Counted from the first letter of the stretch, positions 22,493 through 28,278 are shown. The stretch is 42,316 nucleotides of DNA from an uncultured Hyphomonadaceae bacterium (GCA_913056435.1 CAJXMY010000002.1:1-42316), one strand, 5' to 3'. Numbers and translations: made by a program. Notes: generated from the letters alone by a model not told the origin.

Positions 22493-24688
22493 ATGACGGA
22501 CTGGGTTGGGATCGGTCGTACCATTATTGCCGGGAGCCTGTTTTTTCTCACCAGCTGCGATCGGATTGATGAGCGTCTGGACAGGGCGCAGGACGTCACC
22601 AGCGCGGCCCTGCAGCAGCTTATGGGAAACCCGCCATCGTCGGACGGGATTGACTTTGAAAGATATCCTATAGAAGCGCGAGCGCTCTCGGCCACGTTCA
22701 GGGCCGCGGACACATCCTCTCGAATTGCGCCCACCAGATCGCGTTATGTCATCGGGTCGATCGTGGCGAAACCCAGAGATCTTCCTGAAGCCATCGCTGT
22801 CGCCGAGGCACAGAGGCGCCCAGAACTTGCGCGCGAAATCAGCATCGATAAGGACGCGGAAGCCAGAATTGTCGTTCTTGACGAGGCCACCCGTGTTCGT
22901 GCCCTGTCTGATACCTCCGTGATAGAACGGATTCAGCGGGCACCGGTCAAATCCCGAAACATCACGGTTTTGGACCCTGAGGTGATCCGTAGGGCGGAAC
23001 TGGCCCGTCCAGATACACGCATTGTTCCGGGATCACAGATTCGCCAACCTCTTGGCACCAGACCGATCTCTAAACCGGACCCCGAGCTGAGCAATGAAGC
23101 CCGGCTGCAAACCTTGCCCCGTTTTTCCAACACCAAACTCGCGCGGCGAGCACTCGTCCAACAGGACCGCATGGTTCGCCGGCAGATGGTGGCGGAGGAC
23201 AGAATGCTCCAGACCGCAGCGCGATACGGCATTGCCGCAAGCATCCAGAGATCTCGAACCGGGCAGATGGTCATCGAGATCGGAGACGATGCCCTGAGCC
23301 CGACCCAATTTCAGGGTCAGCGGCTCGAGCAGAAAACAGTTGCCTTTGAAAACGGAATCCAATGCGAGCTTGCCAACGGGGAACAGGCACCGCGGGACGC
23401 TCAGATGGCCATGGCATGTGTTTTGAAGGATCTGGAGGCCTCCGGAGAATTCGAATATGTCGAAAAGGATTACATCTTTGATCATCAAATGATCCTGCCA
23501 GGGCGTTCACGGTCTTCTGAAATCAATAAATTCCGTCCCAATGACCCGCTGTTTGATTTGCAATGGCATTATCATGATCGGGGCGCAGAGCCGGGCCAGT
23601 CGGCCGGGGGCTCCGGTTTTGTGGATTTTTGGACCCGGGCCGGTGTCCAGGGGTCACAGAACATCGTCGTGGCTGTTGTCGACACAGGGCTTCAGCTGAG
23701 CCACCCCGACATCGCGGACTCACCCAACATTGCCCAAGGCTGGGACATGGTAACAGACCCTGCTGCAGGGAATGACGGCGACAGCAGAGACTCCAACCCG
23801 ACCGATCCGGGCGACGCCTGTCCTGAAGCCGGAATTCTGGAAGACAGCTTTCATGGCACCCACGTGGCCGGGACCATTGGCGCAGCCTCGACGAACAACA
23901 AGACAGGCGTGTCCGGGGGAGCCTGGTCTGTCAAAATTGTCCCTGTCAGGGCTCTCGGGAAATGTGGTGGCCGGCTTTCAGATATAAATGATGCCATTCG
24001 CTGGGCCGCCGGAACCATTCCAGAGTTTGATACGGATGGTGAAGAAGTCTGGAATGAGAATCCGGCAGATATCATAAATCTGTCGATCGGCCTGTTCAGA
24101 TCCTGCCCCGCGTCGATGCAGGATGCCATTGACGACGTTACAGCAGCCGGTGTGATTGTTGTGGCGGCGGCCGGCAATGACAGGGTCTCGACCGAATTCT
24201 ACGCCCCGGCCGGCTGCAACAATGTTGTCACGGTCGGCAGCGGTGACGCTCGCGGGCACATGGCTCCCTATTCTAATTTTGGTGACGCCATTGACCTGCT
24301 GGCGCCCGGTGGCGATCTGAGCCGGGATGATAATGGCGACGGCAATCCGGATGGTATCTTGTCCAGCAAGGTGGCCAGCAATTGCTTCGACCCCGCCAGT
24401 GGCAAAGCCGTGGAGCAATGCTTCTATGCCTTTGAGGAGGGTACCAGCATGGCCGCGCCGCACGTCTCCGCCGCCCTGGCCCTCATAAAGGCGGCACGGC
24501 CTGACTTGTCCCCGGAAGAGCTGGTCTCAACCCTGTTGGCCGGGGTCAGCACCCATGCGCCAGACAGCTGTACCGGCCCCTGTCGCCAGTTTCCGGGAAC
24601 CACGCCGATCGAGCCCGACTCAGAGATCTGCTATCGTCCCTGCGGCGAAGGGGCTCTCGACCTCTCAACGATCAGTCTGTCGCCCTAG
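22493..24688 (+). CDS. S8 (subtilisin-like) serine peptidase, predicted lipoprotein with long N-terminal pro-region
   Basis: Lipobox LTSC; triad regions AVVDTGLQLSHPD, HGTHVAGTIGA, GTSMAAPHVSAA; AAGGAG RBS. Confidence 0.93.
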   Translation: MTDWVGIGRTIIAGSLFFLTSCDRIDERLDRAQDVTSAALQQLMGNPPSSDGIDFERYPIEARALSATFRAADTSSRIAPTRSRYVIGSIVAKPRDLPEAIAVAEAQRRPELAREISIDKDAEARIVVLDEATRVRALSDTSVIERIQRAPVKSRNITVLDPEVIRRAELARPDTRIVPGSQIRQPLGTRPISKPDPELSNEARLQTLPRFSNTKLARRALVQQDRMVRRQMVAEDRMLQTAARYGIAASIQRSRTGQMVIEIGDDALSPTQFQGQRLEQKTVAFENGIQCELANGEQAPRDAQMAMACVLKDLEASGEFEYVEKDYIFDHQMILPGRSRSSEINKFRPNDPLFDLQWHYHDRGAEPGQSAGGSGFVDFWTRAGVQGSQNIVVAVVDTGLQLSHPDIADSPNIAQGWDMVTDPAAGNDGDSRDSNPTDPGDACPEAGILEDSFHGTHVAGTIGAASTNNKTGVSGGAWSVKIVPVRALGKCGGRLSDINDAIRWAAGTIPEFDTDGEEVWNENPADIINLSIGLFRSCPASMQDAIDDVTAAGVIVVAAAGNDRVSTEFYAPAGCNNVVTVGSGDARGHMAPYSNFGDAIDLLAPGGDLSRDDNGDGNPDGILSSKVASNCFDPASGKAVEQCFYAFEEGTSMAAPHVSAALALIKAARPDLSPEELVSTLLAGVSTHAPDSCTGPCRQFPGTTPIEPDSEICYRPCGEGALDLSTISLSP

Positions 24689-24708
24689 GGTCCGGAGGAG
24701 CAAGGTCC

Positions 24709-25230
24709 ATGTCGTTTCACGAAACAGTGCAGCATGTAGCATTATCCCGCGCCGCCATAGGCCTCTTCCTTGCCGCGGGCCTGATCTCTTGCAGCTCCTG
24801 CTCCAGCCTCGACACGCGACCACCTCCGGACTCCAGGCCGATAACCCCCTTCCAGCCAAGCAGCAACTTTTCGTCACAATCCGTGATCCGGCCCTTGCCG
24901 ATTCAAGCAGACGACAGTGTGGTCCGTCAGGCCCGCTTTATCGTCAAGTTTCGCCAGCAAGCGGCATTGGTGGGTCTCGGCCGGACCTTCCGACAGGACC
25001 CTGCGGCGGGCAGACGCCATTATCGGGCCTGGGCAGAAGACTATGAGGCGCTACGTGGTTTGATCCTGGTGGGCGCCAGTTATTCTGGGGAACTCATCCT
25101 GGCCTTGCCGCCCGATGACCCCTTCGGCCGACGCCCAGACGATGTACTCTCCGAGGTCGGCCGGATCCCATCTCTGATTTATATTGAACGTGACTCCGAC
25201 AGCTTCGGACATTCAGGAGGACCCAAATGA
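24709..25230 (+). CDS. Small lipoprotein; possible free-standing I9-like propeptide/inhibitor domain
   Basis: Signal peptide with lipobox-like GLISCSSC; domain RFIVKFRQQAALVGLGRTF...SLIYIERDSDSF resembles the subtilisin prodomain pattern (xFIVKFK ... xVxYIExD). Confidence 0.5.
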   Translation: MSFHETVQHVALSRAAIGLFLAAGLISCSSCSSLDTRPPPDSRPITPFQPSSNFSSQSVIRPLPIQADDSVVRQARFIVKFRQQAALVGLGRTFRQDPAAGRRHYRAWAEDYEALRGLILVGASYSGELILALPPDDPFGRRPDDVLSEVGRIPSLIYIERDSDSFGHSGGPK

Positions 25231-25853
25231 AACGTGTCTGGCAGATGGTGCAGATCGGTGGTGCCGTGCTGGGCTTGATGGCCTGTCAGCCATCAGATCA
25301 GCGTGTAAGCTCACCGGCGTCTTCGGGAAACAGCCCCGGCACGGAGCAGGCGGGAATCGTGACACCCGACGGACCGGCAAGGAAGCAGGCCACGATTGAT
25401 TGGCAGGCCGCGCGCGCCGATTATGCCAGCCGCCCGGAGCCCCCCGGCTCAGATCAGTTTGCGATTGCATCCGGCGGCCAAGCGCCAGTGGTTCCTGTTT
25501 TGCTGCCGCCCAGATCCTTTGCAATTGCCAGTGTGGATGGGATCCCTGAGCTTCGTGTGGTCCCAATGGCCGATGGGTATTACGCCATCGCCCGCGGTGA
25601 AACCTATGACACTATCATCAATGGTTCTGATCGTCTGATCAGCGCGCCCGAGGGTCTGGAAAGCCTTGAGTCCGGGTCCCTGCGTTTCTCGGAAACCATG
25701 ACGGGTGCCGACGTCGCGTTCCGACGCTATGGAGCGTCGTACCTGGTGGAGTTTCACTGCAAAGGACGGCCGCCTCTGGGTGGTGACCCCTGCATTGACG
25801 AGATTGAAGCGCTTCAAATTGTCGAAAACCTCTTGCTGACGGGAACACAATGA
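25227..25853 (+). CDS. Predicted lipoprotein of unknown function
   Basis: MKRVWQMVQIGGAVLGLMAC lipobox; ATGA overlaps with both neighbours. Confidence 0.65.
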   Translation: MKRVWQMVQIGGAVLGLMACQPSDQRVSSPASSGNSPGTEQAGIVTPDGPARKQATIDWQAARADYASRPEPPGSDQFAIASGGQAPVVPVLLPPRSFAIASVDGIPELRVVPMADGYYAIARGETYDTIINGSDRLISAPEGLESLESGSLRFSETMTGADVAFRRYGASYLVEFHCKGRPPLGGDPCIDEIEALQIVENLLLTGTQ

Positions 25854-27094
25854 TGCGAGTCTCTGGTCTCTTCTCAATGGCGGTCTTCGCACTCACCCTA
25901 TCTGGTTGCGATGCAGTTCGGTTCCCCGGTGATGGGCGGCCCTTACCGGAAGACCGCAAAGCGAATGCGCCCCTGACAAGTCCCCTTCTGGGGCCCGAAA
26001 CCGCTGAGGCCTCCCCCGAAGAGGGCGATCCGTCCCCGGCTGATGATCAACCCGAGAGTCCCGCGCCTGAAGCAGACCAAGAGAGCGACCCGGACCCCTC
26101 CCCGAACATGGACGCCGAAGAAGACACATCACCCCCCTCCACCGAAATGCCCGGTGCAGATTCAGATCCGCCCCTGACGTCTCCCGACACCTCACCAGAA
26201 CCCGCTTCCGATGACACCTCGGAGCCCGCTCAGCCAGAGTCGGACACGGAACCAACGCCCTCTGACCCGGCCCTGGAGACATCTTCAGAAACCGAAGACA
26301 CAGCAACAATCGATAGCGATGAGGTTCCGGCTCCAGCCCCTGATCCGGCACCGCTCCCCATAAAGTTTCAGTATTACCCCCCCGGCACGCTGGCTCCTGG
26401 CTCCGGCGCAGGTCTTTCAGACACCACCATTTATGTGCCTGAAATGGTCTTTCCCATCAAACAGGACCCCGCCTTTCCGGGATCACAGGTCTGGGGTTAT
26501 GGCGGGGGCATGAGCACGGGTGGCCAGTGCGATGCGCGGAATTATACTGATGTCGTATGGCAGGATAATTTCTGTGAATATCGGAGCCGGGCACGGAATA
26601 CGCCGTTATGTCCCTCTAATAATGCCCATCAGGGCCAGGATATCCGGGTTGGCTCGCGTCAGGGATGTCTCGAAATGGTGGACGGCCGTCCGGACAAGCC
26701 AACACTTTATGAAGTTGTCGCAACAGAAGGGGGCATCATCCAGTATATTGGCAGCTATTCTCTGACGCTGAAAGGCACCGACACCGGCAATCTATATAAT
26801 TACCTCCACCTCAACATGGGTGCCCTTCAGGTCGCAGAAAACGATATTGTGTCGCCCGGACAACTTCTTGGCTACATTTCCGATGACTTCGGAGGCACTC
26901 CAACGACTTATCATCTCCATTTCGAGATCAAAGGGCCTGTTGAGGGTATAGGGTTTTCCCACTTACCACCCTATACATCTCTCATTGCGGCATATGAACG
27001 CCGTGAAAATGGACGCGGTGAACGAGTCGAGCCCGACACAGTTGCCGTCGCCAGCACACCGACGGTTCCAGAAGGCCTATTTATCGGGGAATAG
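25850..27094 (+). CDS. M23 family metallopeptidase, predicted lipoprotein with long acidic/Pro-rich linker
   Basis: Lipobox LTLSGC; about 130-aa D/E/P/S/T-rich linker; HQGQD, NYLHLNMG and YHLHFEI motifs give the LytM/M23 zinc ligands. Confidence 0.88.
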   Translation: MMRVSGLFSMAVFALTLSGCDAVRFPGDGRPLPEDRKANAPLTSPLLGPETAEASPEEGDPSPADDQPESPAPEADQESDPDPSPNMDAEEDTSPPSTEMPGADSDPPLTSPDTSPEPASDDTSEPAQPESDTEPTPSDPALETSSETEDTATIDSDEVPAPAPDPAPLPIKFQYYPPGTLAPGSGAGLSDTTIYVPEMVFPIKQDPAFPGSQVWGYGGGMSTGGQCDARNYTDVVWQDNFCEYRSRARNTPLCPSNNAHQGQDIRVGSRQGCLEMVDGRPDKPTLYEVVATEGGIIQYIGSYSLTLKGTDTGNLYNYLHLNMGALQVAENDIVSPGQLLGYISDDFGGTPTTYHLHFEIKGPVEGIGFSHLPPYTSLIAAYERRENGRGERVEPDTVAVASTPTVPEGLFIGE

Positions 27095-27234: not shown

Positions 27235-28278
27235 ATGACCGCAGTCAAAAATCTTCCGGTGTCATCAACCAAAGGCCTCTCGGAGGCAGAGGCTCCAGTT
27301 GTCACTCTGCTTGGGACCGATTTGCCGGAGGCGTATCTGGACGATGCCGAGCCCAGCCCGCTCATGGAGAAAGCCAATCAGCTCTGGAGACGCTTTAAAC
27401 GTCTTATGCTTCTGGCCATCATTGTCGGCGCCGCCACCTTCTATCCCATGTCCATTCTCTCAGGTCATCACATCGATGATCGGGAAATTTTCCCGTCGGA
27501 TACACTGGGCTGGGAATCGACCGAAATTGGCACCATGCTCACCCTGCTTGGCCGGGAACTCACAGGAGCTGGCTGGACAGGCGATCGTCCCGACTGGCAC
27601 CCACAGGCCCGCCTCACGGCCCTGCCCGCGTGGCAGTCCGGCCTTGCCGGAGCCCTCTCTGATTACAGTGCAGTGCTGGCCAGCCGCGCGCCTGACTCCT
27701 CAGGTCGTCCGGACGCAGATCTTTCTGCTGCCTCTCGCTTACTTTCCCTTGCGGAGGGGACGTCAGACAGTCTGCCGTCACTCTCTGCTGCAGCAGAAGC
27801 TTTGCAACGCTATGATGGTCGGCTTGCAAGAAACCTCGCACCCGAAATCAACTCTGTCGGCGACCTAGATGCGCGCCTGATCGAACTGACCGACTGGGCA
27901 AATAACAGCCTGACAGCGCTCCGCCAAAGCGCCAATACCGCACAGGGCTGGCCAGCCAGCACAAGCGATATCGAAGCGATTTATCATGCCAGAGCCAGAG
28001 CCCATGTTGCCGGCGAACTTTTGAAGGCAGCCCCTCAGATTTCGGCCGGCCAGCTGTCTGCTCTGGCCATGTCAAACTATGACGATGCCTTATTCGCATG
28101 GCGCCGCGCCGCCTTATTCAGTCCCCTTATCATTATGAGTCAGGCGAGAACGGATCTGATCCTGTCCGATCACCCAGGGACTATGGCCTTCTACATGAGT
28201 GAGGCCGCTACGGCGACCGAAGCGCTGCGGATGTCCCTCCGCAACCAGGAAATGCGCTCAGCGGATCTGTCGAAGTGA
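27235..28278 (+). CDS. DUF2333-like inner-membrane-anchored protein
   Basis: TM segment LMLLAIIVGAATFYPMSILSGHHIDDREIF, then GAGWTGDRPDWHPQARLTALPAWQSGLAGALSDYSAVL, resembling the DUF2333 family. Confidence 0.6.
   Translation: MTAVKNLPVSSTKGLSEAEAPVVTLLGTDLPEAYLDDAEPSPLMEKANQLWRRFKRLMLLAIIVGAATFYPMSILSGHHIDDREIFPSDTLGWESTEIGTMLTLLGRELTGAGWTGDRPDWHPQARLTALPAWQSGLAGALSDYSAVLASRAPDSSGRPDADLSAASRLLSLAEGTSDSLPSLSAAAEALQRYDGRLARNLAPEINSVGDLDARLIELTDWANNSLTALRQSANTAQGWPASTSDIEAIYHARARAHVAGELLKAAPQISAGQLSALAMSNYDDALFAWRRAALFSPLIIMSQARTDLILSDHPGTMAFYMSEAATATEALRMSLRNQEMRSADLSK

Follow-up and report, generated by a model that had tools for sequence, protein, structure and literature searches.

Dentilisin of Treponema denticola (PrcB-PrcA-PrtP) is an acylated S8 protease encoded in an operon with two accessory lipoproteins, one of which, PrcA, is cleaved by the protease; dentilisin is on the cell surface and PrcB reportedly has no homologs outside the oral treponemes (PMC8167434). 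In the LmdC-BacA system of Hyphomonas neptunium an M23 enzyme is active and has its own genomic partner; LmdC is a bitopic coiled-coil protein that is recruited by the cytoplasmic bactofilin (PMC10945521). The Ldp enzymes are described as redundant (PMC10336132). Here we discuss a block of four genes, encoding an S8 subtilase, an M23 peptidase and two small proteins between them, in a stretch of 42,316 nucleotides (GCA_913056435.1, CAJXMY010000002.1:1-42316, referred to as the window) from an uncultured member of the Hyphomonadaceae, probably of the genus Henriciella. The block may control cell-wall cutting through proteolysis. The source, a draft genome, has 2.37 Mb in 336 contigs and is 90.6% complete. 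The literature was searched for this arrangement, for Henriciella subtilases and for bacterial trans pro-domain lipoproteins and no paper was found, so that the block seems undescribed, in agreement with an earlier note on this DNA which did not recognise it as a named system.

The four open reading frames (ORFs) are all on the + strand (22493-27094) and encode, in the order S8, g2, g3 and M23 (g1 to g4), proteins of 731, 173, 208 and 414 amino acids, with starts that were set mechanically. All four have hydrophobic N-termini, which end in LTSC (g1), LISC (g2), LMAC (g3) and LSGC (g4). The g1-g2 junction is a gap of 20 bases, and the other two junctions are stop/start overlaps. The earlier note had reported both the lipobox-like cysteines in four same-strand genes and the two overlaps, and all are present in the sequence. 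Scans of the locus for consensus promoters and terminators gave at most a modest excess over shuffles. The features are as follows.

22493..24688, + strand: g1, S8 subtilase, predicted lipoprotein (LTSC-D, Asp at +2), 731 amino acids; from Pfam PF00082 and triad conservation.
22556..22636, + strand: g1 segment following the lipid cysteine, CDRIDERLDRAQDVTSAALQQLMG; conserved in the g1 alignment.
23261..23470, + strand: putative end of the g1 cis pro-domain, GQMVIEIG ... FEYVEKDY; assigned by motif, without a Pfam match.
24709..25230, + strand: g2, membrane-anchored stand-alone pro-domain-like protein, 173 amino acids; from AlphaFold2, Foldseek, PDB profiles and PF22148.
24934-25206, + strand: g2 core domain, residues 76-166; from AlphaFold2.
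25227..25853, + strand: g3, predicted lipoprotein, 208 amino acids, of a family without a Pfam match; from the alignment and co-occurrence with M23.
25850..27094, + strand: g4, M23/LytM-type endopeptidase, predicted lipoprotein (LSGC-D, Asp at +2), 414 amino acids; from PF01551 and ligand conservation.
25227..25230, + strand: ATGA stop/start overlap of g2 and g3; read directly.
25850..25853, + strand: ATGA stop/start overlap of g3 and g4; read directly.

Conservation was assessed in 200 genomes sampled from the order, 41 of them from the family of the window (f1), and the genome counts given here are not phylogenetically independent. (Genomes and loci are cited by our own G and L numbers.) Among 60 relatives examined, orthologs of the S8 gene were found in 17 of the 29 same-genus genomes, the window's own included, at 52-60% identity, and in other genera too, and the order S8-g2-g3-M23 is present in every such genome with enough contig. 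Within f1 all four genes are adjacent and in the same order in 34 of the 41 genomes, and the remaining 7 have none of S8, g3 and M23. Within the genus the block sits between an esterase gene and d347-nfuA; in other f1 genera these flanks are absent and the four genes are still together (L062-L068, L109, L119-L123). The recurrence of one order across the genus, and across other genera with different flanking genes, puts it far from chance. The earlier note had allowed that the four genes might not be conserved together in relatives, or that the two middle genes might be lineage-specific remnants; the f1 counts exclude the first, and g2 and g3 are conserved families. The gene d347 (window 27235-28278) encodes a 347-residue protein without a Pfam match; it is syntenic across the whole genus, 3' of the block, and stays when the block is lost.

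Other families reveal how the block may have arisen. In the sister family f3, S8 is present in 25 genomes, 23 of them without g3 and M23, and in at least 24 of the 25 (some found with a profile that includes f3 members) the next gene downstream of S8 is g2. Families f2, f4 and f5 have g3 and M23 without S8, and the f2 pairs at L148, L149, L154, L162 and L163 are of the type found in the block. On this distribution the block is two older separable pairs joined, S8 with g2 and g3 with M23. In trees the block M23 proteins form one group (0.988) and the block S8 proteins are split, at moderate support, from the S8-g2 pairs of f3, which is consistent with the block having been assembled once.

The earlier note took g1 to be an S8 peptidase with a full triad, and this is borne out by a match to PF00082 (E 1e-54) and by D397 (23681-23683), H454 (23852-23854), S652 (24446-24448) and the oxyanion residue N562, all invariant in 21 homologs. 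The catalytic domain covers about residues 348-690, the alignment of the closest solved structures beginning at residue 348, and is preceded by some 345 N-terminal residues, which close in a conserved pro-domain-like motif directly ahead of it. Scores for the NCBIfam equivalogs tried (mycosin, PrtP, QhpE, PatA) are all far under their cut-offs. Anti-phage defence was also considered and rejected: in PADLOC g1 matches only a generic subtilase model (E 1e-23) and, weakly, IetS, and g2-g4 match nothing.

The most likely identity of g2 is a subtilase pro-domain that is separately encoded and membrane-anchored, because predicted fold, PDB profile and Pfam agree, though each is weak alone. AlphaFold2 predicts the core as a small alpha/beta domain with a predicted local distance difference test score (pLDDT) > 90, and its order of elements, beta-alpha-beta-beta-alpha-beta, is that of subtilase propeptides. 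The top Foldseek match in the PDB is a subtilase propeptide (8c4z_A, prob 0.99, E 0.056), and the two top profile matches among 177,635 PDB sequences, both weak, are to subtilisin prosegments (E 0.15 and 0.65). PF22148, the Fervidolysin prodomain, is matched weakly by 4 of 21 g2 members, with a best E of 0.0039. The C-terminus of every g2 protein lies 11-15 residues past the last conserved strand, and in this g2 resembles a cleaved pro-domain. No part of g2 is better conserved than the pro-domain-like domain, which is kept wherever the full S8 is kept. No g2-S8 fusion was seen, and nothing convincing was found for g2 outside the order in 318 genomes of the class. Membrane-anchored g2-like proteins are also encoded as orphans at L104:7013-7507, L105:6199-6693, L107:5898-6422 and L108:6304-6822, with no S8 match nearby; in L104 and L108 the orphan gene is preceded by one for a Rieske iron-sulphur protein.

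In the case of g4, the match to PF01551 (E 7.5e-6) falls narrowly short of the gathering cut-off (26.5 bits against 28.7), and we place the protein in M23/LytM because of its ligand residues together with weak matches to LytM structures. The zinc ligands that the earlier note had pointed out are confirmed, in that H260 (26627-26629), D264 (26639-26641), H320, H355 and H357 (HxxxD, HxH and the catalytic His) are invariant in 32 homologs, as are C227, C242, C254 and C273. The catalytic domain (about residues 173-385) follows a linker (about residues 30-170) that is long, acidic, Pro-rich and highly variable.

The g3 protein matched no Pfam or NCBIfam family. It is predicted to have a six-stranded sheet and has two invariant cysteines (C178, C189). 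It was tried as an RseB-like and as a DotD-like protein, and both were rejected as the matches are too weak (E 0.05 for the RseB fold). It is a new, uncharacterised family and a nearly obligate partner of M23: each is present in 84 of the 200 genomes, and these are the same genomes barring the contig-edge cases G103 and G189, the apparent gap in G103 being an M23 gene cut at a contig end. Where a genome has two g3 genes it mostly has two M23 genes, adjacent to them. The two are fused, with g3 N-terminal, at L038, L042, L044, L138, L139 and L153, and a single g3-M23 ORF is found in genomes G097, G142, G186 and G303. In G178, of family f2, g3 is split over two frames upstream of an intact M23 gene (L162:5658-6349), by a frameshift that may be real or a sequencing error. 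In the Parvularculaceae (L135, L136, L140, L141, L143, L144, L145) g3-M23 lies behind MotA/ExbB-like and OmpA/MotB-like coiled-coil genes, which match ZorA/ZorB models in PADLOC, and the arrangement suggests that here an M23 enzyme is linked to a proton-driven motor of the envelope. The M23 subfamily that g3 partners is widespread, occurring also outside the family of the window, and the role of g3 is directly testable.

With regard to location, the earlier note took all four proteins to be predicted lipoproteins. A pattern search, on which all lipoprotein predictions here are based, finds the lipobox in 28/30 homologs of g1, 27/29 of g3 and 26/29 of g4, so that these three are predicted lipoproteins. 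For g2 the note needs correction, since a lipobox-like pattern is present in 20/29 homologs and is not conserved, several having a plain transmembrane anchor (e.g. L065, L068, L119-L121). In E. coli, lipoproteins with Asp next to the lipid cysteine stay in the inner membrane. There is Asp at +2 in 24 of the 28 S8 lipoboxes and 25 of the 26 in M23, suggesting that both enzymes are anchored in the inner membrane. The earlier proposal of a surface- or periplasm-anchored module is retained as regards the envelope, with the S8 and M23 anchors now pointing to the inner membrane.

The losses within f1 are informative. The whole block has been lost cleanly in G007, G027 and G009, where the esterase gene is directly joined to d347. 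In a clade of eight Henriciella genomes (G012, G005, G002, G014, G017, G018, G004, G021) the S8 catalytic domain, g3 and M23 are lost, and the first 40 or so mature residues of S8 are retained as a free-standing small lipoprotein. In G012 g2 is still full-length; six of the others have its membrane anchor only, as an ORF of about 40 residues (in G014 seen as raw translation only), and it was not recovered in G005. These relic mini-operons (L155, L156, L160, L178-L181, L106) lie between esterase and d347. A simple pairwise count on these short ORFs, pooled over genome pairs, gives proportions of nonsynonymous and synonymous differences (pN/pS) of 0.167/0.570 for the mini-lipoprotein, a ratio of about 0.29, and of 0.157/0.629 for the mini-anchor, about 0.25, and because these are low both mini-ORFs are probably translated and under purifying selection. 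This would be a rare case in which peptides from the anchors of lost enzymes are kept by selection. G030, of another genus, is an independent case, with a mini-lipoprotein and a full g2, and with the S8 catalytic domain, g3 and M23 gone. That g2 is kept in G012 and G030 while the genes on both sides of it are lost argues for a mutual dependence, in f1, of S8 activity and the g3-M23 pair.

We propose that the block encodes a periplasmic, membrane-anchored module of two peptidases, each with its own encoded regulatory partner, in which S8 would switch M23; this is the reading we lean to, at slightly less than an even chance. It builds on what can be read from the genomes directly, namely which families are present, their catalytic residues, how the genes pair, how the block is assembled from modules and what is lost jointly. 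We infer that g2 inhibits or chaperones S8, that g3 regulates M23 and that the proteins are in the inner membrane. As a pro-domain in trans, g2 would keep the S8 lipoprotein folded and/or inhibited, tethered beside it in the same membrane through the conserved N-terminal segments, and the M23 lipoprotein would be a catalytically competent peptidoglycan endopeptidase gated by periplasmic g3. Release of S8 by g2 would allow it to cut g3 or the long disordered M23 linker, and cell-wall cutting would be switched or freed; that S8 acts on M23 and not the reverse, and where it would cut, are guesses. How peptidoglycan endopeptidases are controlled is an open question, and if true, regulation through a dedicated subtilase and its pro-domain in trans would be a new route. 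The fuller version, a new circuit in which a tethered subtilase held by its trans pro-domain triggers peptidoglycan cleavage by cutting the partner or tether of the LytM enzyme, and in which the relic anchors of the clade without the enzymes are a selected pair of proteins of about 40 residues that have a function themselves, we regard as doubtful.

Several points weigh against the proposal. The joint loss may stem in part from large deletions of neighbouring genes, and the +2 rule was established for E. coli and not for these bacteria. The Foldseek E value of g2 is only 0.056 for a fold that is common, with ferredoxin-like matches next in the list, and comparison of g2 with the pro-domain region of g1 itself by hhalign gave no significant similarity (E 0.36). 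A pure inhibitor of S8 need not persist without it, as g2 does in G012 and G030. The fold match of g3, to RseB, is weak (E 0.05). Finally S8-g2 and g3-M23 each stand alone in other families, and neither pair generally needs the other. This last point is also the basis of the strongest alternative, that the block is two independent pairs sharing a promoter and responding to the same envelope condition, S8-g2 in quality control or processing of exported proteins and g3-M23 in peptidoglycan remodelling. The Parvularculaceae, in which g3-M23 is behind the motor-like genes instead, are in line with this, and we rate it somewhat less likely than our proposal. However no sampled f1 genome keeps one pair alone, and the loss in G012 and G030 of S8 catalysis and of g3-M23, from either side of a retained g2, also counts against it. 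The earlier idea that S8 and M23 form one functional module gains from the parallel losses, and is changed in that the module is made of two separable pairs.

Another alternative concerns g2, which could be a docking or anchoring partner of S8 and not an inhibitor, its essential part being the membrane segment, paired with the N-terminus of the S8 lipoprotein. The reduced genomes retain just these two segments, with the low pN/pS ratios given above, and the same HYGGQIGL motif often precedes the membrane segment in full-length g2. However it is the pro-domain-like domain that is best conserved and that accompanies every full S8, and we consider docking alone unlikely. Lineage-specific accretion without a common function, by vertical descent and chance deletions, would account for inheritance between conserved flanks in the genus and for the losses in G007, G027 and G009 as single deletions, but we already give it very little weight given the order kept across genera with different flanks, pairs that are ancestrally obligate across families, the g3-M23 fusions and the non-contiguous loss around g2. 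An attack module, with a lysostaphin-like M23 enzyme activated by S8 and g3 as its immunity protein, has in its favour the active M23 residues and a dedicated neighbouring gene, but is hardly credible for proteins with lipid anchors and +2 Asp. Their locus is chromosomal and syntenic with core genes, nfuA among them, no immunity, export or mobile genes were seen adjoining it, and some genomes have g3 and the enzyme fused, as would not be expected of an immunity protein; the bacteriocin-like role raised in the earlier note thus finds no support.

We return to our preferred reading, of a two-peptidase module, for comparison with known systems. The block is like dentilisin in having a predicted S8 lipoprotein in an operon with accessory predicted lipoproteins, and dentilisin shows, by analogy, that the logic of an S8 lipoprotein processing its operon partner exists. 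However dentilisin has no M23 enzyme, and g1 scores 57.2 bits against the PrtP model NF033595, for which the cut-off is 300, and so falls outside that family. With LmdC-BacA, which is from the same bacterial family as the window, the block shares an M23 enzyme with its own genomic partner, but g4, unlike LmdC, is predicted to be a lipoprotein and has an acidic, disordered linker, and the scanned neighbours of the block included no bactofilin gene. The Ldp enzymes are of the same enzyme class as g4 and from the same bacterial order; none could be mapped to its M23 subfamily, and no description of g3 was found. LytM enzymes of the Csd3/MepM type have regulatory N-terminal domains, and in some genomes g3 is likewise the N-terminal part of a fusion with M23, where such a domain would be expected, but it resembles no Pfam domain in sequence and is usually a separate protein. 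With the pro-domains of S8 proteases (subtilisin prosegment, fervidolysin N-terminal prodomain) and the stand-alone propeptide-like inhibitors of family I9, g2 shares the predicted fold and the C-terminal motif. It differs from them in that sequence similarity is weak, with E 0.004 at best, and in being separately encoded, membrane-anchored and directly downstream of a full S8 protease.

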